Shown piece by piece: positions 18,697-28,030 of a stretch of 64,000 nt of DNA (position 1 is its first letter; each line of letters starts with the position of its first letter). The stretch lies in NCBI GenBank assembly GCA_021295965.1, contig JAGWBI010000009.1, forward strand, positions 1 through 64,000, read 5' to 3'. This stretch comes from Dehalococcoidia bacterium. Its GTDB lineage: Bacteria > Chloroflexota > Dehalococcoidia > Lucifugimonadales > UBA3495. A program made the position numbers and the translations under genes. The notes beneath the pieces are model-generated. The model did not search any database and was not told the origin of the DNA. It saw only the letters and a program-made list of their open reading frames with translations.

Positions 18697-18724
18697 GTGG
18701 GGGCGAATGAATATTCGCCCCTAC
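18697..18724. repeat. 28-bp intergenic palindrome, overlapping a stop codon
   Basis: Arms GTGGGGGCGAAT (one mismatch) and ATTCGCCCCTAC around GAAT. Its last bases provide the TAG stop (18721-18723) of the minus-strand LLM oxidoreductase gene. Confidence 0.88.
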
Positions 18725-19755
18725 GTTTCTAGCGGTTCCAGGCCGCAGGCCGCCGCCACCAGTTCGTAGGAACGGACGCGATCTTCGTAGTGGTAGCAAA
18801 TGGTGACCACGCTGAGATCCGGGGTTTGATAGTCTTCCGCTACCTTTTCGAGGCCTTCCTTCACCTGTTCCGGGTCACCGTCCACGCAATTCCTCAGGTA
18901 CTGCTGGATGAACTGCCATTCGTTGACCAGGTATTTGTAATCGGCCGCGACTTCTGGGGACGGGATGCCCTTGGCGCGACCGGTAACGGAACGGAGCCGT
19001 CCCAGGTTGCGGCTTGACGCGATGCGTTGGGCCTCTACCTCGGTATCGGCGCACAGCACCTGCACACCCACGTTGACGAGGGGCTCCGCCAGGTGTTCCG
19101 ACGGCTCGAAGTTCTGCCGGTAGGATTCGACAATCTGCGGCCCGTCGGCGGCGCCCAGGCCAAAGAAGTGGGCGTAGGCGAAGGGCAGGCCCATTTTGGC
19201 GGCCATAAACGCGGATTCGTAACGGGACCCCAACAGCCATACGTCAGGCTTGGTTTCCGAAATCTCCGGCGCAGCCAACACTTCATGGAAGGGGTGATCG
19301 TCGGGTTGCGTATCGCTCAGATAGTTGATGACGTCCCTGACCTGTTGGGGGAAATGGCGGACGTCCTTGGGCATACTCGGGTAAGCCAACGCCGCCGCCG
19401 TGATCTGGTCGCTGCCGGGAGCGCGACCGATGCCGAGATCGATCCTTCCGGGGTACAGGGAGTCCAGGATGCGGAAGGTTTCAGCCACCTTCAAAGAGCT
19501 GTAATGAGGCAGCATGACGCCACCGGATCCAACTCTGATGCTGGTGGTGTGGGCGGCGATCTGGCCCACCATCACCTCCGGGGCCGTACCCGCGAAGTTG
19601 GGCAGGTTGTGGTGCTCCGCCACCCAATAACGCTGATAGCCGAGGCGCTCGGTGGCTACCGCCAATTGGATGGTCTCATGGAGGGCCACGCCGGCGTTGC
19701 TCCCCTCCCGCATCGGCGACTGGTCAACCACGCTTAGTTGCAATTTTTGGTTCAA
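18721..19755 (-). CDS. LLM class flavin-dependent oxidoreductase (MsnO8-like)
   Basis: A luciferase-like monooxygenase-family protein of about 344 residues. Recognisable blocks are LSVVDQSPMREG, RYWVAEHHNLPNFAGTAPEV, IRVGSGGVMLPHYSSLKVAE, LYPGRIDLGIGRAPGSD, and PDVWLLGSRYESAFMAAKMGLPFAYAHFF. These form the TIM barrel that binds FMN or F420. The SRYES block is typical of the MsnO8 subgroup. The start is uncertain: TTG 19753-19755 sits too close to a GGAGGA site, and a second TTG at 19743 has 12-nt spacing. The last codon and stop are made by the palindrome at 18697. Confidence 0.88.
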   Translation of the reverse strand: MNQKLQLSVVDQSPMREGSNAGVALHETIQLAVATERLGYQRYWVAEHHNLPNFAGTAPEVMVGQIAAHTTSIRVGSGGVMLPHYSSLKVAETFRILDSLYPGRIDLGIGRAPGSDQITAAALAYPSMPKDVRHFPQQVRDVINYLSDTQPDDHPFHEVLAAPEISETKPDVWLLGSRYESAFMAAKMGLPFAYAHFFGLGAADGPQIVESYRQNFEPSEHLAEPLVNVGVQVLCADTEVEAQRIASSRNLGRLRSVTGRAKGIPSPEVAADYKYLVNEWQFIQQYLRNCVDGDPEQVKEGLEKVAEDYQTPDLSVVTICYHYEDRVRSYELVAAACGLEPLET

Positions 19756-19839
19756 TTCCTCCCCCTGCTGGCAAGATCGTCCCGATTTTACACTTTGCCC
19801 CATTTAGCGACGGCATTTAATTTATCATCAGAATCCGAG

Positions 19840-19869
19840 TTGCGGGAACAGGACGGCGGGCATTATCAT
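19840..19869 (+). promoter_or_regulatory. Possible pst promoter
   Basis: TTGCGG (19840-19845), an 18-nt spacer and TATCAT (19864-19869), followed by a short direct repeat TGAAGAA at 19876 and 19897. The repeat spacing of 21 nt would place both copies on the same face of the helix. The consensus match is moderate and the repeat is not a proven Pho box. Confidence 0.35.
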
Positions 19870-19960
19870 ATTTCGTGAAGAAGCATAATTAGCGCATGAA
19901 GAACTCGCGGCGGCGTCCCCAACCATGGGATCCGGATCGTCCAATAACAGGTGAACCGCT

Positions 19961-21292
19961 TTGCTTTTCAATAAATCGATAGGCGCCAAACCGACCGCCC
20001 CGGATGCTCCGACGGTCGGGAAACCGCTTACCGGAAGCGGCAACAAGTACCTACTTGAACGCATTGTCAAGTGGGTACTTTTTCTTTTGGCCGCGGTGTC
20101 AGTTCTGACCACGGTGGGCATCGTGTCGGTGCTGCTTTTCGAGGGCGTGCGCTTTTTCACTGCGGACTTCTACGAAAACAACCCGGTGGAACGGGTGGCC
20201 ACCAGCGGAGCGGAAGGTCTGGCCGGAGTATCCCCGGATCCACTGGCGCCCGGCATCATCCCTGAAATCAGAGTGCGGGCCACCACCGATTCGCTGATAT
20301 ACGTCGATTGGGACAAGCCCACGGTGGGGCAAACGCCTACGGGCTATGAGGTTTCGGTGCTGCCGAGCCTCGAAGCAGATCTGTCAGACTGCCGTAACCT
20401 CGGGCCGGATCGGACGTCCTGCGTAATCGCGGATGCGGCGCCCGGACGTTCACACAAGGTCACGGTCGCTGCTGTTTCGGGAGGAGGCACGGGAGTGGGC
20501 CTTCAAACCGGCTCCTTCAGTGTACCGGAGTCGGTCAAATGGCACCGGTTTCTGACCGACAGCAAGTGGCGAACCCTGTTGGTGCCACGTTCCTACGGCA
20601 TTTGGCCCCTATTGGTGGGCACCACAATGATCGCAGTGCTGGCCATGTTTGTGGCAGTGCCCTTGGGGTTGCTGAGCGCGATTTTCCTTAGCGAATACGC
20701 CCACCCCCGGGTGCGAGCCATCACCAAGCCCATCCTGGAGGTCCTGGCTGGCGTCCCCACCGTGGTTTATGGGTTCTTCGCGCTGTTCTTCATCACGCCG
20801 ATCCTGCGGGGTATCAACGACGATGTGGGTATCTTCAACGCCCTGTCTGCGGCCATAGTGATGGGCGTCATGATCATACCAATGGTTTCCAGCCTCAGCG
20901 AGGACGCCATGCGCGCCGTGCCCATCGCGCTCCGGGAGGGTGCCTACGCCCTGGGCGCCACCAAGGTTGAGGTGGCGATTAAAGTGGTGGTTCCGGCGGC
21001 GCTGTCAGGGATTGTCGCGGCCTGCATCCTGGCGATGTCGCGGGCCATCGGCGAAACGATGATCGTGTTCATCGCTGCCGGCCAGAACGAAAAGCTTACA
21101 TTCAATCCCCTGGATCCGGTGAACACGATGACCGGATTCATGGCAACCACCAATTTCAGCGACAACGCCATACCGGGAACGGCACAATTCCAAGCCCTGT
21201 TCGCGGTGGGCATCACCCTGTTCATCATCACGTTGGTGATGAACCTGGCAAGTCAGTTCGTCGTCGCGAAGTTCCGCGAGGTGTACGAATAA
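19961..21292 (+). CDS. pstC: Phosphate ABC transporter permease PstC with an inserted FN3-like domain
   Basis: A 443-residue permease of the high-affinity phosphate transporter. TM1 is about residues 36-60. The permease core starts near residue 213 (GIWPLLVGTTMIAVLAMF) and contains PILEVLAGVPTVVYGFFALFF and the EAA loop SLREGAYALGATK-type sequence (ALREGAYALGATKVEVA). Between TM1 and TM2, about residues 98-189 form an extra beta-rich segment. It has PEIRVRATTDSLIYVDWDKP, TGYEVSVLP and SHKVTVAAVSGGGTG, the pattern of a fibronectin type III domain, with a Cys pair (144, 154) that could form a disulfide outside the cell. The start is TTG 19961 with AGGTG upstream. pstA overlaps by 1 nt. No pstS is found nearby. 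Confidence 0.92.
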   Translation: MLFNKSIGAKPTAPDAPTVGKPLTGSGNKYLLERIVKWVLFLLAAVSVLTTVGIVSVLLFEGVRFFTADFYENNPVERVATSGAEGLAGVSPDPLAPGIIPEIRVRATTDSLIYVDWDKPTVGQTPTGYEVSVLPSLEADLSDCRNLGPDRTSCVIADAAPGRSHKVTVAAVSGGGTGVGLQTGSFSVPESVKWHRFLTDSKWRTLLVPRSYGIWPLLVGTTMIAVLAMFVAVPLGLLSAIFLSEYAHPRVRAITKPILEVLAGVPTVVYGFFALFFITPILRGINDDVGIFNALSAAIVMGVMIIPMVSSLSEDAMRAVPIALREGAYALGATKVEVAIKVVVPAALSGIVAACILAMSRAIGETMIVFIAAGQNEKLTFNPLDPVNTMTGFMATTNFSDNAIPGTAQFQALFAVGITLFIITLVMNLASQFVVAKFREVYE

Positions 21293-22212
21293 TGGCGACC
21301 GAAACAGAGAACAACTATCGTCACAGACTGGCGAACCGCAAACGCACCGCGTCCATCTTCTACGCCGTGTGCGTGGGGGCGGTAATCCTGGCCCTGGTGA
21401 TGCTGGTGGCGCTCCTGTACAGCGTGATCTCGGAGGCCATCGCCTGGTTCAACCTGGATGGGACCTCCATCATCACGCTGCTGACAGACATTCCATCCAG
21501 CAAGGCGGTCAACTCCGGCCTGTTGCCGGCCATTGTGGGCACGCTCTGGGTGATGGTAATTTGCATTTTCGTATCTTTTACGGTGGGCGTATCGGCGGCA
21601 ATTTATCTGGAGGAGTACTCCAGCGGCAGCCGGTTAGCCGAACTGATCCAGATCAACATTCAAAACCTAGCGGCGGTTCCATCCATCGTTTACGGCATCC
21701 TGGGCCTGTCCATATTCGTGACTTTCTTCGTATGGCTGGCCCCGGGGACCGACGGGAAAAACGTGACCGCCGCCGGTTTGACTTTGGCGCTGCTGATCAT
21801 GCCGGTGGTGATCGTGTCGTCCCAGGAGGCAATTCGCGCAGTGCCATCGTCGATACGGGAAGGCGGCTTTGCCTTAGGCGCAACCAAGTGGCAGGTGGTC
21901 TGGAGGCTCGTGCTACCCCAGGCGATGCCGGGGGTGCTCACCGGGATCATCCTGGCGGTCAGCCGAGCCATGGGCGAAGCGGCGCCGCTGGTCATCATGG
22001 GAGCCTTGTCATTCGTGCCGTTCGCTCCGGCGCATCCGCTGGACCGTTTCACCGTACTGCCCATCCAGATTTACGTCTGGATCTCCAAGCCTCAGGAAGA
22101 GTTTCACCACCTGGCGGCCGCCGGCATCATCGTGTTGTTGGTGATGCTGCTGGGGATGAACGCATTCGCGATCCTGCTCCGAAACCGCCTGCAAAAGAAC
22201 CAACAGGGGTAG
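21292..22212 (+). CDS. pstA: Phosphate ABC transporter permease PstA
   Basis: A 306-residue second permease of the phosphate transporter, with six hydrophobic helices. Typical blocks are SAIYLEEYSSGSR-like AAIYLEEYSSGSRLAELI, NIQNLAAVPSIVYGILGL, and the EAA loop AVPSSIREGGFALGATKWQVVWRLVLPQAMPG, which docks on the ATPase. GAIL-type ILAVSRAMGEAAPLVIMGA follows. The ATG shares a base with the pstC stop (TAATG), so the two permeases are translationally coupled. Length and topology are normal. Confidence 0.95.
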   Translation: MATETENNYRHRLANRKRTASIFYAVCVGAVILALVMLVALLYSVISEAIAWFNLDGTSIITLLTDIPSSKAVNSGLLPAIVGTLWVMVICIFVSFTVGVSAAIYLEEYSSGSRLAELIQINIQNLAAVPSIVYGILGLSIFVTFFVWLAPGTDGKNVTAAGLTLALLIMPVVIVSSQEAIRAVPSSIREGGFALGATKWQVVWRLVLPQAMPGVLTGIILAVSRAMGEAAPLVIMGALSFVPFAPAHPLDRFTVLPIQIYVWISKPQEEFHHLAAAGIIVLLVMLLGMNAFAILLRNRLQKNQQG

Positions 22213-22218
22213 TGTGAT

Positions 22219-23004
22219 ATGGCTGCTGCAACAGTTGCAACCCGGCCGGCGGTCCGCGCCATCGACGTCGGAGTCTATTACGGCTCCAACAAGGTGATCG
22301 AAGGCGTGACCATGGATATCCCGGAGAATGAAATCACCGCCATCATCGGGCCCAGCGGCGCCGGTAAGAGTACACTTTTGCGCTGCATCAACCGCATGAA
22401 CGATTTAATCGAAGTCTTCCGCATGGAAGGCGAGATGTGGTTCGGGGACTTCAACCTGTACGCGCCCGGATCCGACCCGACTCAGATCCGCTACCGGATC
22501 GGGATGGTTTTCCAGCGACCCAACCCGTTCCCCAAGTCCATCTACGACAACATTGCTTTCGGGCCGCGCATCAACGGGTTCCAAGGCAGTATGGACGATA
22601 TCGTGGAGCAGTCTTTGCAGGACGCCGCGCTGTGGGATGAAGTGAAAGACCGGTTGAAGGAATCGGCTCTGTCGCTATCCGGCGGGCAGCAGCAACGGCT
22701 CTGCATCGCCCGGGCCTTGGCGGTGGAACCCAGCGTAATCCTGATGGACGAACCCTGCTCCTCACTGGACCCCATCGCCACCCTTGCCATAGAAGAGCTG
22801 ATGCAGGAACTCAAAAAACGCTACAGCATCATGATAGTCACACACAATATGCAGCAGGCCGGACGCGTTTCGGACAAGACGGCGTTCTTGATGCCCGATG
22901 AGAACCGGGTGGCTCACTTGGTCGAATTCGGTGACACCCGGACGATGTTCACCAACCCCAGCGACGAACGTACGGAAGCGTACATCACCGGCCGGTTCGG
23001 TTAG
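22219..23004 (+). CDS. pstB: Phosphate ABC transporter ATPase PstB
   Basis: A 261-residue ATPase that powers phosphate import. The Walker A motif is [14 protein letters not shown], the Q-loop lies in [17 protein letters not shown], the ABC signature is [16 protein letters not shown], the Walker B is [13 protein letters not shown], and the H-loop His is in [11 protein letters not shown]. The [11 protein letters not shown] block and C-terminal EYITGRFG-like AYITGRFG are diagnostic for PstB. It begins 6 nt after pstA and is followed by phoU in the same transcript. Confidence 0.96.
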
Positions 23005-23053
23005 CCCCGGGAAAGCCGGGCCGGTCCACTGCGAAGACACGGAGGTGTCGCAA

Positions 23054-23734
23054 ATGCTGAGGTCCGACTACGAACGCGACCTGTACAGCCTGCAAGATGA
23101 CCTGGCCGTTATGGGCCAGCGAGTGGACGCGGCGACCCGATCCGCGCTGACCGCGCTGGAGCATCAGGATTTGGGCCTGGCACAAAGGGTCATTGAGGAC
23201 GATGACGAACTCGACAGCCTGCAGGACGCCCTGGAAAGCAAGTGCATTGGCTTGTTGGCGACCCAGCAGCCCACCGCCATCGATTTGCGAATGGTAATGT
23301 CGGCCGTGCATATCGCGGTGGAACTGGAAAGGATGGGAGACTACGCGGAGGGCATCGCCAAGATCTGCCTGCGCATCGGCGACCAACCTCTGTTGAAACC
23401 GTTGATCGACATTCCCAGAATGGCGGATCTCGCCCTCAAGATGCTGAGTGAAAGCCTGCAAGCCTACGTCAACCGGGACGAATGGCTCGCCCGCAAAATC
23501 TGCCGTGACGACGACGCCGTTGATGATTTTTACGACCAGATTTATCGTGAACTGTTGACCTATATGCTGCAAGACCCGCGTAACATCGAACGCGCCACGT
23601 ATCTCCTGTGGGTTGCCCATGACCTGGAGCGTATCGCCGACCGGGCCACCAATATCTCCGAGCGCGTGCTGTGGCTGATCCTGGGGCGCACCGTGGGTAC
23701 CGGTGATTTGAAGAGTGACCGCTCGTTGCGCTAA
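23054..23734 (+). CDS. phoU: Phosphate signalling protein PhoU
   Basis: A 226-residue all-helical protein with two PhoU three-helix repeats. The metal-binding E/D-x3-D patterns are visible as VAVELERMGDYAEGIA (first repeat) and VAHDLERIADRATNISERV (second repeat). It links the PstSCAB transporter to the PhoR/PhoB sensor pair and prevents phosphate over-accumulation. The ATG 23054 follows GGAGGTG at 7-8 nt. It lies 49 nt after pstB and closes the pstCAB-phoU operon. No phoBR genes are in the window. Confidence 0.94.
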   Translation: MLRSDYERDLYSLQDDLAVMGQRVDAATRSALTALEHQDLGLAQRVIEDDDELDSLQDALESKCIGLLATQQPTAIDLRMVMSAVHIAVELERMGDYAEGIAKICLRIGDQPLLKPLIDIPRMADLALKMLSESLQAYVNRDEWLARKICRDDDAVDDFYDQIYRELLTYMLQDPRNIERATYLLWVAHDLERIADRATNISERVLWLILGRTVGTGDLKSDRSLR

Positions 23735-23790
23735 CGCCGGGGCGGCGTCGCGCGCCCATGACGGCGCGAATGATTCGGCGTAAACCGAAA

Positions 23791-23825
23791 ATACTGCCGT
23801 TGACAATTCCCGACCTCGGCAGTAT
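23791..23825 (+). promoter_or_regulatory. Perfect 9-bp inverted repeat over the sulfite reductase promoter (candidate operator)
   Basis: ATACTGCCG (23791-23799) and its exact complement CGGCAGTAT (23817-23825) flank the -35 box and run into the -10 box. The 17-nt spacing between arms (26 nt centre to centre) is close to what a dimeric regulator on two adjacent grooves would need. The regulator is unknown. Confidence 0.55.
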
Positions 23826-23828
23826 AGT
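23800..23828 (+). promoter_or_regulatory. Sigma-70-type promoter of the sulfite reductase operon
   Basis: A perfect TTGACA (23800-23805), a 17-nt spacer and TATAGT (23823-23828). The expected transcription start, about 23835, is within a few bases of the ATG of the cysteine-rich leader frame at 23837, so the leader would be translated from a nearly leaderless transcript. Confidence 0.8.
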
Positions 23829-23836
23829 TTTCGCAA

Positions 23837-23905
23837 ATGCAAAGTAATTGCAAAACGAACTGCGTTTGCTCCTGTTCCTGTCCCCCGAAATCGGGGGCAG
23901 GATGA
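23837..23905 (+). CDS. Cysteine-rich leader peptide
   Basis: A 22-codon frame from ATG 23837 to TGA 23905 with Cys at codons 5, 9, 11, 13 and 15 (NCKTNCVCSCSC). The last four alternate with other residues. Five cysteines in 22 codons is far above any gene in the window. There is no ribosome-binding site because the predicted transcript starts at or just before the ATG. Its role would be to sense charged tRNA-Cys through ribosome stalling. The last cysteine codons overlap the 5' arm of a strong hairpin (23877-23887). The downstream gene makes sulfide, the sulfur donor for cysteine. This is a prediction from sequence; no homologue is recognised. Confidence 0.7.
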   Translation: MQSNCKTNCVCSCSCPPKSGAG

Positions 23906-23980
23906 CCCCGGCCTGACTTTTCAGGTTCGCGCCTGCGCCCACCGATTTCGCCTTGCGGCAACGGTGGGTTTTTGTTTTTT
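23877..23980 (+). promoter_or_regulatory. Transcription attenuator with alternative hairpins
   Basis: Region 1 (23877-23887) pairs with region 2 (23892-23901) in a 10-bp stem with one bulge and an AAAT loop. Region 2 can instead pair with region 3 (23932-23940, CCTGCGCCC): 8 base pairs with one G-G mismatch. That pairing encloses a small CCTGA/TCAGG hairpin (23912-23925) and ties up the first three bases of the terminator's 5' arm. Region 3/4 forms the terminator. Stalling on the Cys codons would cover region 1, free region 2 for 2:3 pairing and allow readthrough. Normal translation to the TGA covers regions 1 and 2, and no translation leaves 1:2 paired. In both of those cases the terminator forms. 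Confidence 0.65.
23938..23980 (+). terminator. Intrinsic terminator in the leader of the sulfite reductase gene
   Basis: A 7-bp GC-rich stem CCCACCG (23938-23944) / CGGTGGG (23962-23968), with a small inner GCC/GGC pairing, is followed directly by TTTTTGTTTTTT (23969-23980). It lies 20 nt before the reductase start and downstream of its only visible promoter, so it must be conditional. Confidence 0.85.
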
Positions 23981-24000
23981 CAGCATCCGAGGAGGACACC

Positions 24001-25836
24001 TTGACCAGCCAAGCGCAACATCCCAGCCTGGAAGATATCCACCAGTCCAGTATGCGGCTGGCGCCCGACGCGCCGGCGATTATCCCGTTCATGGAGGACG
24101 AGATCCAGCGCTTCGACGCTGAGGTTGACCGCTTCCGCACCGGGGAACTGGACAACACCGTGTTCACGCCTTTCCGGCTCCGCCAGGGAGTGTACGGGCA
24201 GCGCCAAGCCGATGTCCAGATGATCCGGGTCAAGCTTCCCGGCGGCATCATCACGGCGGAAATGCTGGACTGTTTTGGCGACATAGCGGAACGCTATGCC
24301 CCGTTGCAAAAGGGGCACATCACCACGCGGGAGAACATCCAGCTGCATCATATCCCGCTGGAACAGACCTCCGAAGTGCTGCGGCTATTGGGCTCGGTGG
24401 GTCTGTCCACGCGCGAGGCGTGCGGGAATACCGTGCGAAACGTGGTGGGACCGCCGACGGCCGGCGTCAGCCGGGAAGAAGTCTTCGATCCGACGCCCTA
24501 CCTCACTGCCTACGTGCGCTTTGGCGTTCGCCATCCGATCACCCAGAGCTTCCCGCGCAAGTTCAAGTCAGCCTTCACCGGCAACGACCAACGCGACGAG
24601 GTGGCGGCCGCGATCCAGGACCTCACCTTTGTTTCCCAATACCAAGAAATTGACGGGGAGCAGCGGAAGGGCTTCAAGGTCTATTGCGGCGGCGGCACTT
24701 CCATCATGCCCCGGTTGGCGAAGCCACTGTACGAATGGGTTTCGGAGGATGACTACCTGCGCGTGGCCCTGGCGGTGTGGACGGTGTTCAACAACGCCGA
24801 TATGCTGCGCAAAAACCGGATGATGGCCCGTCTCAAGGTTTTGATTGACCGCATCGGGCTGGACGAATTCCGCGACATGGTGGACGCTGAACTGGCCAAT
24901 ATCGGGCCAATCGACTTCCGCTCCCTGATGGTTGCGGAGGAAATACAGCGGGAAACTCCGCCGGCACAACCGGCTTCCGCTAACGGCGACGACGGTAATC
25001 CCGAGTACCAGGCGTGGCTCAAGTCCAACGTGGAAGCGCAACGACAGGAAGGCTATCACGTCGTTTATGTCAAAGCAGAGCGTGGCGACTTGAACCCGGC
25101 GCAGTTCTGCGGCCTTGCCGACATCGTCCGCAAATACACCGGCGGGAAGGCCCGGACCAGCCAGGAGCAGAACATCGTCCTGAGGTGGGTTCCCAGCGGA
25201 CACCTGCACGACGTGTGGGACGCTCTAAAAGCGTTGGACCTGGCCGAAGCCGGTCACAGCCACATCACCAACGTGGTTTCCTGCCCCGGCACCGACAGTT
25301 GCAAGCTAGGCATCACCGCCTCCATGGGTTTGGCCAAAGCCCTGCGGGAAGAGATGTCGGACTGGAACGGCCTGGCCGACGACGCCGGAGTGGGCGACAT
25401 CCGTATAAAGATGAGCGGCTGCCCCAACGGGTGCGGTTTGCATCACATCGCCAACATTGGCTTCCACGGGGCTGCGGTGAAGGGCGTGGAAGGCCAGCAG
25501 ATCCCGTCCTACGAGCTGTTCCTGGGCGGCAATTACGGCGATAACCGGGTGGAAGATTCCCGGATCGGAACCCGCGTCCCCAAGGTCAAGGTGCCGGCCA
25601 AGTTGGTCCCCTCGGTTCTGAAAGAAATCGTCAGTTACTACAAGGAAAATCGCACCGGCGACGGGGAACGGTTCAATGACTTCCTGGACCGAGTGGGTTT
25701 GGAGGAATTGACGGGCGTAGCCGCACGGGCGCAGGAAGTGGGCCACGAAGCCGAGGGTGGCGGGGAGATGTATTTCGACTGGGAGCGCACCAACCAGTAC
25801 GTGCTGGAGCGTGGCGAGGGCGAGTGCGCCGTCTAG
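24001..25836 (+). CDS. Ferredoxin-type siroheme sulfite/nitrite reductase
   Basis: A 611-residue assimilatory reductase with two ferredoxin-like half-domains and two siroheme-binding domains. The siroheme-[4Fe-4S] cysteines are Cys428/Cys434 (SCPGTDSCKLG) and Cys474/Cys478 (SGCPNGCGLH). The N-terminal domain has LRQGVYGQRQADVQMIRVKLPGG-type sequence and the substrate/ferredoxin region TTRENIQLHHI and ACGNTVRNVVG. It catalyses six-electron reduction of sulfite to sulfide (or nitrite to ammonia). The family alone does not decide which, but the cysteine leader upstream argues for sulfite. The start is TTG 24001 after GAGGAGG. A TTG further upstream lies inside the terminator and is rejected. hemD follows after 19 nt. 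Confidence 0.92.
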   Translation: MTSQAQHPSLEDIHQSSMRLAPDAPAIIPFMEDEIQRFDAEVDRFRTGELDNTVFTPFRLRQGVYGQRQADVQMIRVKLPGGIITAEMLDCFGDIAERYAPLQKGHITTRENIQLHHIPLEQTSEVLRLLGSVGLSTREACGNTVRNVVGPPTAGVSREEVFDPTPYLTAYVRFGVRHPITQSFPRKFKSAFTGNDQRDEVAAAIQDLTFVSQYQEIDGEQRKGFKVYCGGGTSIMPRLAKPLYEWVSEDDYLRVALAVWTVFNNADMLRKNRMMARLKVLIDRIGLDEFRDMVDAELANIGPIDFRSLMVAEEIQRETPPAQPASANGDDGNPEYQAWLKSNVEAQRQEGYHVVYVKAERGDLNPAQFCGLADIVRKYTGGKARTSQEQNIVLRWVPSGHLHDVWDALKALDLAEAGHSHITNVVSCPGTDSCKLGITASMGLAKALREEMSDWNGLADDAGVGDIRIKMSGCPNGCGLHHIANIGFHGAAVKGVEGQQIPSYELFLGGNYGDNRVEDSRIGTRVPKVKVPAKLVPSVLKEIVSYYKENRTGDGERFNDFLDRVGLEELTGVAARAQEVGHEAEGGGEMYFDWERTNQYVLERGEGECAV

Positions 25837-25855
25837 CGGCGAGGCTCGCAGTATC

Positions 25856-26680
25856 ATGGCCAATGCGGCCCTGAACGGGAGAGTGCTGGCCTTCGTCGAG
25901 GCTCGTATGCCCGACGAGATGGCCGGCCTCATCCGTCGTCATGGTGGAGTGCCTTTGGGCGCTCCGGTATTGCAGGAGCACTACCGAAGCGACAGCCCGG
26001 AAGCTCGTGGGGCTATCGACGATGTCTGCGCAGGACGGGTTGACGCCGCCATTTTCCTGACCGGTGTTGGCGCCAACGCTATGATGGGGATTGCGGAGGC
26101 AATGGGACGATTGGGGGAATTCGAGGACGCGCTGCGCAACATCACCGTCGTGGCGCGCAGTCCAAAGCCGGGGCGGATCCTGCGTCGCCATAAAATCCCG
26201 ATCGCGGTCATGCCCCCGGAACCTTACACTTCTTCGGACTTGACGGCGGCAATGGCCGGGCTGCCGCTGGCAGGCAAGCGAGTCGTGTTCCAACGCTATG
26301 GTGGTCCCGACTCCGAACTGCCCACCTATCTGCGGGAACAAGGCGCCGACTATCAGGAGCTTACGCTGTACGACTGGGGACTGCCCGACGATACCGGTCC
26401 CGTGGTGGACCTGATCGACCGTATGGAAGGGGGCGAGGTTGATGCTCTGGCCTTCACCAGCCGGCCGCAGGTTCCCAACCTGCTGGCAATAGCCGCCGAT
26501 GCCGGCCGCGAAGAAAGCCTCCGCCGCAGCCTGTCAAACGCAGTGGCGGTGGCGTCCGTCGGGCCGGTCTGCACCCGGAAGTTGCTGGAACACAACATCC
26601 GGGTGGACGTGGAACCCGAACACCCGCACATGGGCAACCTGGTGCTGGCCGTGGCGGAATATTTCGGTGGAGCCGGTTAG
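25856..26680 (+). CDS. hemD: Uroporphyrinogen-III synthase family protein
   Basis: A 274-residue HemD-like protein that closes and inverts ring D of hydroxymethylbilane to uroporphyrinogen III, the branch point for siroheme. The two lobes are recognisable. The first has GRVLAFVEARMPDEMAGLIRRHGG, and the linker region is FLTGVGANAMMGIAEAMG. The second lobe has VVFQRYGGPDSELPTYLREQGADY, DALAFTSRPQVPNLL and VASVGPVCTRKLLEHNI. HemD proteins are very divergent, so the call rests on fold-level motifs. Its place 19 nt behind a siroheme enzyme supports cofactor supply. Its end overlaps the convergent cupin gene by 4 nt. Confidence 0.85.
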   Translation: MANAALNGRVLAFVEARMPDEMAGLIRRHGGVPLGAPVLQEHYRSDSPEARGAIDDVCAGRVDAAIFLTGVGANAMMGIAEAMGRLGEFEDALRNITVVARSPKPGRILRRHKIPIAVMPPEPYTSSDLTAAMAGLPLAGKRVVFQRYGGPDSELPTYLREQGADYQELTLYDWGLPDDTGPVVDLIDRMEGGEVDALAFTSRPQVPNLLAIAADAGREESLRRSLSNAVAVASVGPVCTRKLLEHNIRVDVEPEHPHMGNLVLAVAEYFGGAG

Positions 26681-27009
26681 TATTTGAACTCTTCGCGTAC
26701 CGGGCTGAATATGTCCAGCGCGACGGCTTTGGTGTCCCGGCCTTTGGCGTAGTGTTCTACGTCGCCGGGGATGATGTACATATCTCCCGGCTTGAGGACA
26801 CGGACCTCGCCCCCGATGCCCATTTCCAACTCGCCCTCCACAATGATGCCACCCTGTTCGTGAGGGTGGGTGTGCAGCGGCACGGTTGCGCCGGCGTCAA
26901 CCTCCACCAGTGAGAAGAGCATCTGGGCTCCCCAGAAGGTGCGGGTGCGGGCGCCTTCGGCCAGTTCTTTGTAACCCCGGCCTTCAAGTTGCAGGAAGTA
27001 ATCGCTCAT
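26677..27009 (-). CDS. Small single-domain cupin
   Basis: A 110-residue cupin. Motif 1 is visible as PLHTHPHEQGGIIVEGELEMGIGG (two or three His and a Glu, the metal ligands), and motif 2 as LKPGDMYIIPGDVEHYAKG (ending His). Such small cupins bind a metal and act as dioxygenases, isomerases or sensors, and the substrate cannot be read from sequence. The ATG 27009 follows AAGGAG at good distance. It is immediately downstream of radC on the same strand (19 nt gap) and overlaps the hemD stop on the other strand. Confidence 0.88.
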   Translation of the reverse strand: MSDYFLQLEGRGYKELAEGARTRTFWGAQMLFSLVEVDAGATVPLHTHPHEQGGIIVEGELEMGIGGEVRVLKPGDMYIIPGDVEHYAKGRDTKAVALDIFSPVREEFKY

Positions 27010-27028
27010 TGCAGGGTCTCCTTTTTGG

Positions 27029-27916
27029 TCAGGTGGGGTCAAATCCCAATCCTTTTTGTTTCAAACTGACGAACTGGCCGCCATGTCCGATGATGATATG
27101 GTCCAGCAGTTCAATGTCCATCAATTTGCCGGCGGCGGCCAGATGGACCGTAACGGCTATGTCCTCCGGGCTGGGAGTAGGGTCGCCGGAAGGGTGATTG
27201 TGGACCACGATGATCGACGGCGCGTTTTCCCGGACCGCTGGGCGGAGGACCTCGGCGGTGCGGACGGAACTGTTGTTGACGGTCCCAATATAGATGTTAC
27301 GTCGGGCAATCACCCGGTTTTTGTTGTTCAGGAGCAGGACATCCAGATTTTCCTGGGTCAACGTCTCCATCTCCGCTGACACCAAGTTGGCGGCGTCTTG
27401 CGGACAGGAAATCTCCGCCCGCTCCTCGGGGGCCAACGACGCAATGCGTCGTCCCAACTCCAGCGCTGCCATGATCTCGCAAGTCTTGGCATCGCTCAAC
27501 CCGCGCTGGTCGCAAAGTTCAGCGTATCCGGCGCGGGCGAAACCTGCCAACCCGTCGAATTCCGCCAGGATGCGCGTAGCGACGTTGATGGCGTTTTCGC
27601 CGGCAATCCCCGTTCGCAGCAAGATGGCGACCAACTCGGCATTGTTCAGGTAACGAGGCCCGTGTGCGCGTAGCCGTTCGCGGGGTCGCTCGCCGATGGG
27701 CAGCTCACGGATGGTGGGTTGGTACGAAACCGCTGCCTTCGAACCGGGTTTTGGTCGCATATCCGCGCTGGAAACCGGGCAGGTATCGTTGGACGGCTCG
27801 GTTTGCTCTGGCGAGTTGTCAGCGGTGGCTGGGGTTCCGCTGATAATTTGGTCCAGTTCGGCGCGAAAAGCCTCCAGGGCTTCTAATTCGGCTGGTGACC
27901 CGGCGATAACCATCAT
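27029..27916 (-). CDS. radC: RadC-family JAMM/MPN protein
   Basis: A 295-residue RadC-like protein. The helix-hairpin-helix-like N-terminal part has IRELPIGERPRERLRAHGPRYLNNAELVAILLRTG. The C-terminal MPN domain carries the full JAMM metal motif VVHNHPSGDPTPSPED, with the upstream Glu in the expected strand. RadC was named for DNA repair, but its biochemical role remains unclear. The usual family start is near SYQPTIRELP. Here about 60 extra low-complexity residues precede it (rich in Pro, Ser, Thr and acidic residues), so the true start may be the internal ATG at 27760. Confidence 0.92.
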   Translation of the reverse strand: MMVIAGSPAELEALEAFRAELDQIISGTPATADNSPEQTEPSNDTCPVSSADMRPKPGSKAAVSYQPTIRELPIGERPRERLRAHGPRYLNNAELVAILLRTGIAGENAINVATRILAEFDGLAGFARAGYAELCDQRGLSDAKTCEIMAALELGRRIASLAPEERAEISCPQDAANLVSAEMETLTQENLDVLLLNNKNRVIARRNIYIGTVNNSSVRTAEVLRPAVRENAPSIIVVHNHPSGDPTPSPEDIAVTVHLAAAGKLMDIELLDHIIIGHGGQFVSLKQKGLGFDPT

Positions 27917-28030
27917 TCACTCCGACCTCAAAATGGCGTCGCCGATCAGTGTAAAACGACCACGGACAGTCTCGCTACGGCCTCCTGTCAGCAAATCTGA
28001 CGGCAAGTGTGCGCTACGGGTCAAAAGGAC

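Follow-up and report, generated by a model that had tools for sequence, protein, structure and literature searches.

How is the siroheme reductase gene of a Dehalococcoidia bacterium (phylum Chloroflexota) controlled? The question is raised by contig JAGWBI010000009.1, whose first 64,000 nucleotides, read on the forward strand, are referred to here as the window, and in which the reductase gene is preceded by a promoter, a short cysteine-rich reading frame and a series of RNA arms with alternative partners. The original prediction read this region as a cysteine-responsive attenuator placed before a sulfite reductase, an interpretation which our analysis supports as largely right: the leader is very probably a ribosome-mediated transcription attenuator that senses cysteinyl-tRNA.

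The leader and its target gene

A sequence check confirmed all the leader elements that had been proposed, namely a near-consensus promoter, a 22-codon frame with five Cys codons, the 1:2, 2:3 and 3:4 pairings and a T-rich tract, each at its predicted place within 23800-23980. The elements and the genes that follow them are:

23800..23828, + strand: sigma-70-type promoter, TTGACA-17-TATAGT
23837..23905 including the TGA, + strand: leader ORF MQSNCKTNCVCSCSCPPKSGAG, 22 codons, predicted to be leaderless
23877..23887, + strand: arm 1, the 5' arm of the 1:2 hairpin, which holds the last Cys codon (23879-23881)
23892..23901, + strand: arm 2, partner of arm 1 or of arm 3
23912..23925, + strand: minor CCTG...CAGG hairpin separating arms 2 and 3, incompletely conserved in the genus
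23932..23940, + strand: arm 3, the candidate antiterminator partner of arm 2, overlapping the 5' arm of the terminator
23938..23968, + strand: predicted intrinsic terminator hairpin 3:4, with arms at 23938-23944 and 23962-23968
23969..23980, + strand: T-rich tract of the terminator, TTTTTGTTTTTT, read from the sequence
23989..23996, + strand: reductase Shine-Dalgarno-like sequence GAGGAGGA, clear of the terminator stems
24001..25836, + strand: NirA/SirA-type siroheme reductase, 611 aa, TTG start, from family and PDB comparison
25790..26680, + strand: uroporphyrinogen-III synthase HemD (siroheme precursor), with the start codon at 25790 assumed

The promoter, with a -35 element TTGACA (23800-23805), a 17-nt spacer and a -10 element TATAGT (23823-23828), carries 11 of the 12 consensus letters and ranks first among six promoter-like sites in 18700-28000, where shuffled sequences gave a mean of 2.8 sites. 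The leader ATG at 23837 lies 8 nt past the -10 element and has no ribosome-binding site; enterobacterial trp, his and ilv leaders possess one of their own. Cysteine occupies codons 5, 9, 11, 13 and 15 (5/22) and the frame ends with TGA at 23903-23905. Hairpin 1:2 (23877-23901) has a predicted energy of -18.6 kcal/mol, the 2:3 duplex (8 pairs plus one mismatch) -18.4 and the terminator (23938-23968) -15.8, and the fold of the RNA from 23835 to 23985 has a z score of -3.0, with one of 200 shuffled sequences as stable. The terminator ends at 23980, 20 nt before the reductase TTG at 24001; a generic terminator scan did not list it, because the scan accepts loops of 3-8 nt only and the outer stem here encloses 17 nt.

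Cysteine-rich frames of this size are rare in the window: of the 396 frames that begin with ATG and span 12-30 codons, both strands included, 2 have at least five Cys codons, the other one beginning near 24749, within the reductase coordinates. We defined a strict test which asks for a promoter score of at least 9/12, 6-11 nt from the promoter to an ATG or GTG, a peptide of 8-35 aa and at least two Cys residues. Applied to both window strands, it returned exactly one match, the leader at 23837, which rules out a chance Cys frame. A Cys T-box or another known Rfam RNA was also ruled out, as no Rfam covariance model reached its gathering score anywhere in the window, and a search of 23700-24100 that accepted E values up to 1 gave no match either. 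Immediately 5' of the leader, on the same strand, lie phosphate uptake genes (19961-23734), of which phoU, ending at 23734, was identified by family search and pstC, pstA and pstB were recognised by eye only.

The target protein contains NIR_SIR domains scoring well above the Pfam cut-off, and its best NCBIfam match, NirA, reaches 222.6 bits, below the curated equivalog cut-off of 523. Its nearest PDB entry is M. tuberculosis NirA, 1zj8, which we take to be a sulfite reductase. The Cys of the EACG motif and the second Lys of PRKFK match 1zj8; Gly and Asn stand there in chain 3b0l, a nitrite reductase, and these positions presumably separate sulfite from nitrite reductase activity. On these aligned active-site letters a nitrite reductase was rejected as the target, and the enzyme is probably a sulfite reductase, as had been proposed. 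HemD, which scores above the Pfam cut-off and below the NCBIfam equivalog cut-offs, likely shares an operon with the reductase, whose end its assumed start overlaps.

As to the source of sulfite, ATP sulfurylase was found in all 13 genus genomes searched (G000-G012), as was AprA above its cut-off. PAPS reductase (PF01507) was found in one of the 13 (G004), at 28.6 bits compared with 163-179 bits in other families. Sulfite in the genus may therefore come from Sat/Apr or from sulfonates. Sat and AprA without a strong PF01507 match make for an unusual sulfate-to-sulfite route for assimilation.

Conservation and pairing of the leader RNA

We searched 99 genomes including that of the window, 87 of which gave a reductase match, in some cases to distant homologs only. 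The 50 genomes of the same family yielded 45 upstream regions, the other five (G009, G022, G023, G036, G047) having no usable 5' region or a distant homolog only; the G023 leader was seen later, in locus L269. A Cys-rich leader followed by a terminator was present in 44 of the 45 regions (the G015 terminator was placed by hand), and the 45th is cut by a contig end. The strict test was passed by 42 of the 45, and the leaders of G024 and G034, complete but without a good promoter match, failed it. Among the 44 leaders the -35/-10 spacer is 17 nt in 40 and 18 nt in 4, the start codon follows the -10 element after 8 nt in 35 leaders and after 6-9 nt in all, and each leader contains three to six Cys codons. 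Between the -10 element and the start codon none of the 44 carries a Shine-Dalgarno-like word (GGAG, GAGG or AGGA), and three carry one within the upstream 20 nt, while AGGAG or GGAGG lies within 40 nt of the start of the reductase match in 40 of the 44 loci.

Conservation in relatives, which the original prediction had named as its check, holds for both the Cys codons and the stems. Codons 5, 11, 13 and 15 encode Cys in all 13 genus leaders, both TGC and TGT occurring at codon 13; codon 9 is Cys in eight, and codons 4, 7, 8, 10 and 12 vary. Codon 20 (GGG), part of arm 2, is invariant in the genus. Codon 6 (23852-23854, AAA, Lys) is likewise invariant in 13/13, encodes no Cys and lies outside the stems, and the attenuator model gives no account of it. 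The genus frame extends through arm 2 and most other family members stop (ACATAG) in the 1:2 loop, the distance from the last Cys codon to the stop being 12 nt in 20 of the 31 family members outside the window's genus. Judging from the sequences, both stop positions would put a terminating ribosome over arm 2.

Covariation, another check that had been proposed, was found for two of the three helices. In the genus alignment (A1, n = 13) 91.5% of the cells of stems 1:2 and 3:4 are paired, and the stems vary little. The family alignment (A2, n = 44) is more informative for 1:2 and 3:4: 87.9% of cells are paired, against 82.1% in shuffles and 28.6-52.6% in slides, there are 47 cells with double-sided changes against 13.7 in shuffles (8 pairs against 4.8), and the covariation score of 0.240 exceeds those of shuffles (0.164) and of slides (0.034-0.107); on one measure, the count of further pair types, the alignment (19) does not surpass shuffles (20.7). 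Stems 1:2 and 3:4 thus covary.

For the 2:3 helix, which excludes both 1:2 and 3:4 by arm overlap, the picture depends on the distance compared. It is paired in 88.9% of cells in the genus alignment, with no covariation; a structure that adds the small middle hairpin, itself paired in 51.9% of cells, reaches 77.5% there, below shuffled alignments (80.5%). In the family alignment 2:3 is paired in 80.9% of cells (77.7% in shuffles, 37-59% in slides), and a score of 0.131 against 0.109 in shuffles, seven double-sided cells against 4.5 and two pairs against 2.9 make for weak covariation. Across the order, arms 2 and 3 fit each other: in 30 of 34 groups the cognate duplex is better than non-cognate ones (permutation p < 1e-4, 65 loci), 12/15 inside the family and 18/19 outside it. 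The groups are 33 genera plus the second copy of G055 as a group of its own, and G051, G059, G076, G075b and G069b, with a weak leader or none, are omitted. Within the family the cognate advantage is -1.07 kcal/mol against -0.87 and -0.88 for reversed-arm controls, and in other families -3.2 against -0.6 and -0.2, so that the advantage is almost entirely a matter of composition inside the family and only in small part outside it. When loci were shuffled singly, with the stall in genus g4 placed at the second-last Cys codon, 2:3 reached p <= 0.05 for 5 of the 44 loci in the family and 10 of the 26 elsewhere (15/70). The assignment of an antiterminator to this leader is therefore backed by arm overlap and by co-fit across groups, a co-fit that is weak inside the family.

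Second copies and spread in the order

Leaders of the same kind stand before other sulfur genes. In a scan of sulfur-gene loci, a Cys leader unit preceded CysK in 10 of 12 genus loci, including one in the window's own genome (locus L168 near 117,700-119,700 of contig C41; leader at 119511-119617, minus strand). This second copy encodes the peptide MLSIQLPRDLCACPST behind TTGACA-18-TACACT, has an arm 2:arm 3 duplex of -21.5 plus a terminator, and lies between an Rrf2-type gene that ends just 5' and genes for a ThiF-family protein and a PALP-family CysK, in that order. In G007 (L176) the CysK leader looks decayed, with one Cys left by eye, and in G003 (L179) none is visible in the 260 nt shown; the reductase leader is intact in both.

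A covariance model, R2, was built on 45 leaders (35 of reductase and 10 of CysK, that of the window genome included). These are also the rows of alignment A3, drawn from 54 prepared leaders, nine from genus g4 being left out as an extra codon shifts their 1:2 hairpin. RNAalifold run on A3 picked only one 5-pair helix, corresponding to 2:3, and the model was therefore rebuilt with the named 1:2 and 3:4 structure. In a search of 50 genomes, both of the matches that R2 made at E <= 0.1 to the window's own genome were leaders it had been trained on, and in other genera it gave 14 second copies outside the training set (E 9.9e-15 to 5e-6), each before an ORF like the L168 CysK (visible in 13) or a ThiF-like protein (visible in 10), with 12 of the 14 passing the strict test. 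Four weak matches that were fetched (E 0.004 to 0.04) had no leader and were rejected; six others (E 0.01 to 0.08) lay outside the fetched set. Outside the family R2 is insensitive, finding a clear reductase leader in one other family of the order only (G058).

The strict test reached further. In other families of the order it was passed by 19 of 37 reductase loci fetched from 33 genomes, and failed by 18; MRLPDDLFHLCPCPP and MSINYSFNCCCSL are examples of the peptides found there. Locus L101 (G053) has its strict match some 0.6 kb ahead of the reductase match, which suggests that a further gene or a long leader fills the gap, and has CysH and ATP sulfurylase downstream of the reductase. CysH itself has a leader in G050, of another family (MIVKKLSIRQACACCTCTGG..., with a 9-bp match between arms 2 and 3), and one in G051 that passes a looser test only. 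This looser test, with a promoter score of 8, is too lax, because three of its matches (L123, L135, L183) follow no sulfur-gene logic. Outside the order, 33 loci with reductase homologs, among them six distant homologs of less than 40% identity and one locus (G133) cut on its 5' side, contained one clear leader (G103) and a doubtful 42-residue frame in G125.

Over 1,964,726 bases, both strands counted, the strict test made 115 matches, and they lie only before the reductase, ThiF-CysK or CysH, in a background of loci chosen around these sulfur genes, some of them overlapping and L032-L053 omitted as duplicates. Twenty-seven of the 115, with peptides beyond the reductase tally, comprise 23 rows for ThiF-CysK (22 distinct), one for CysH and three further reductase loci. 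The reductase leader and the second copy together point to a small cysteine regulon, most likely run by leaderless, ribosome-mediated transcription attenuation. We consider it reasonably probable that such a regulon spans the order, if not every member of it, in uncultured Dehalococcoidia/SAR202-type Chloroflexota, and that this attenuation would control the sulfide-making operon (sulfite reductase-HemD), the sulfur-fixing one (ThiF-like-CysK) and, in some other families, CysH, with ribosome loading on the nascent 5' end setting the timing of the switch.

Proposed mechanism, alternatives and known systems

The leader has the attributes by which trp-type attenuators are recognised: a short frame rich in codons for the end product, cysteine; a predicted intrinsic terminator between this frame and the first structural gene; and control codons which, in our footprint model, are placed so that a stall would mask arm 1 and free arm 2. 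From the promoter geometry, transcription would start at the leader ATG or 1-2 nt before it, and the nascent RNA would take up a ribosome directly at its bare 5' end. When charged tRNA-Cys is scarce the ribosome would stall on Cys codons 11-15, masking arm 1 with a footprint that ends just short of arm 2, which would then be free to pair with arm 3, block the terminator and allow the sulfite reductase-HemD operon to be made. With ample cysteine the ribosome would reach the stop codon and mask arm 2, leaving arm 3 free for the 3:4 terminator, and the transcript would end near 23980. All of these steps, from the start of the transcript through translation and stalling to termination, are predictions from sequence, and so is the role of cysteine as the signal.

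The footprint model, in which the ribosome covers 14 nt beginning with the P-site codon, gives 12.0 expected 2:3 pairs in the window for a stall at the last Cys codon and 1.8 for a ribosome at the stop. Stalled exceeds stopped pairing in 69 of 70 loci, a result which is partly built in, because the footprint at the stop removes arm 2. At equilibrium the folded full leader keeps the terminator even when stalled in 63 of the 70 loci. In 28 of the 70, pairing of arm 3 with the leader is no lower in the ribosome-free state than in the stalled one, and the window falls just short of this (11.9 against 12.0). For the half-made RNA of the window, folding favours 2:3 over 1:2 (-24.2 against -18.6). 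The switch therefore needs a kinetic folding order, and the model requires that 1:2, or 2:3, form first during transcription; such a co-transcriptional order is the usual assumption for attenuators of this type.

An alternative possibility is translational attenuation in the mycobacterial style, in which the Cys frame would gate access to the reductase start and the hairpins would merely shape the RNA. A leaderless Cys-rich frame before sulfur genes is what has been described in mycobacteria (PMC9031893, PMC4633059), and to this extent the arrangement fits. However, a GC-rich hairpin with a T-tract is found in all 44 complete family leaders, the spacing between the end of the terminator and the beginning of the protein match ranges over 29-106 nt in 43 loci, and the Shine-Dalgarno-like sequence of the window lies outside the stems, all of which make this explanation quite improbable.

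Slightly less credible still is an arrest peptide, in which the nascent chain, through C-P-P or a Cys reacting with a redox or sulfur signal, rather than uncharged tRNA-Cys would stall the ribosome. Proline commonly follows the last Cys (CPP, CPL), and the invariant Lys of codon 6 in the genus has no RNA reason. Nevertheless, the Pro codons double as hairpin arm 1, most genus-g4 leaders lack Pro-Pro (CTCICYIG, for example), and outside the Cys residues the peptides vary in length and sequence. Least probable of the three is that the hairpin terminates the phoU operon, close as its end at 23734 is, and that the Cys frame is incidental or encodes a small metal- or thiol-binding protein, given the strong promoter between phoU and the hairpin and the recurrence of the unit before ThiF-CysK, where the upstream gene is of Rrf2 type, and before CysH of another family.

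Attenuation by a cysteine-sensing leader is a kind of system already known. Cys leader peptides were described upstream of the cys operons in Mycobacterium and Propionibacterium acnes and of cbs in Bifidobacterium longum by Seliverstov et al. 2005 (PMC1262725), whose passages on Mycobacterium report leaders without conserved terminator hairpins. Shell et al. 2015 (PMC4633059) described leaderless Cys-rich ORFs and proposed them as the first cysteine-directed attenuation in bacteria. Leaderless polycysteine ORFs are further attributed to Canestrari et al. 2020, as cited in PMC9031893, PMC9094748 and PMC13236596, and the genes behind those of M. smegmatis are described as translationally controlled (PMC13236596, PMC9031893). 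Thus the leaderless start, which the original prediction took to be unusual for an attenuator, has a precedent in mycobacterial ORFs described as leaderless (PMC9031893, PMC4633059). As described in these sources, the mycobacterial ORFs are reported to be cysteine-responsive and share with our leader a short Cys-rich frame at or adjoining the transcript 5' end (here predicted from the promoter) before sulfur genes, with Cys codons clustered near the frame end. They differ from it in their translational control without a conserved terminator and in phylum; here a terminator and an antiterminator are predicted. The leader resembles the mycobacterial ORFs at the sensing step, and we do not file it as one of them.

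The original prediction knew of no cysteine-rich upstream frame with this full terminator design in a Chloroflexota-like genome. Attenuation by Cys codons with a terminator was already predicted for the uORFC-8-2 motif before cysS in Rhodobacterales (PMC8632094), where a short frame with tandem Cys codons, a first stem that holds them, a terminator and a U-run are described and ribosome-mediated transcription attenuation is likewise proposed. There the target is cysteinyl-tRNA synthetase in Alphaproteobacteria, and the frame is not called leaderless in the passages describing it, whereas here the target is a siroheme reductase. Among 30 cysS-family loci that we fetched there was no strict match and one looser match (L135). 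With attenuators of the enterobacterial trp, his and ilv type and with that of ilvB1 of M. tuberculosis (PMC13236596), which sense other amino acids, the leader shares a control-codon peptide and alternative antiterminator and terminator structures. As for Chloroflexi, open-licence literature on leader peptides or attenuation in this group yielded no cysteine case, and that on cysteine attenuators no Chloroflexi case. As far as these searches show, the combination of a leaderless start, a Cys sensor, a terminator switch and a two-operon regulon in Chloroflexota is new.

The device joins a leaderless cysteine-sensing frame, as in mycobacteria, with a classical switchable terminator, two features that stand apart in the literature compared. 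If our reading is true, leaderless starts are compatible with attenuators that depend on tight ribosome-polymerase coupling, and serve them across a bacterial order known mostly from metagenome assemblies. The leader also lends support to naming the NirA-like enzyme a sulfite reductase, and offers a handle, from sequence only, on the regulation of sulfur assimilation in these bacteria.
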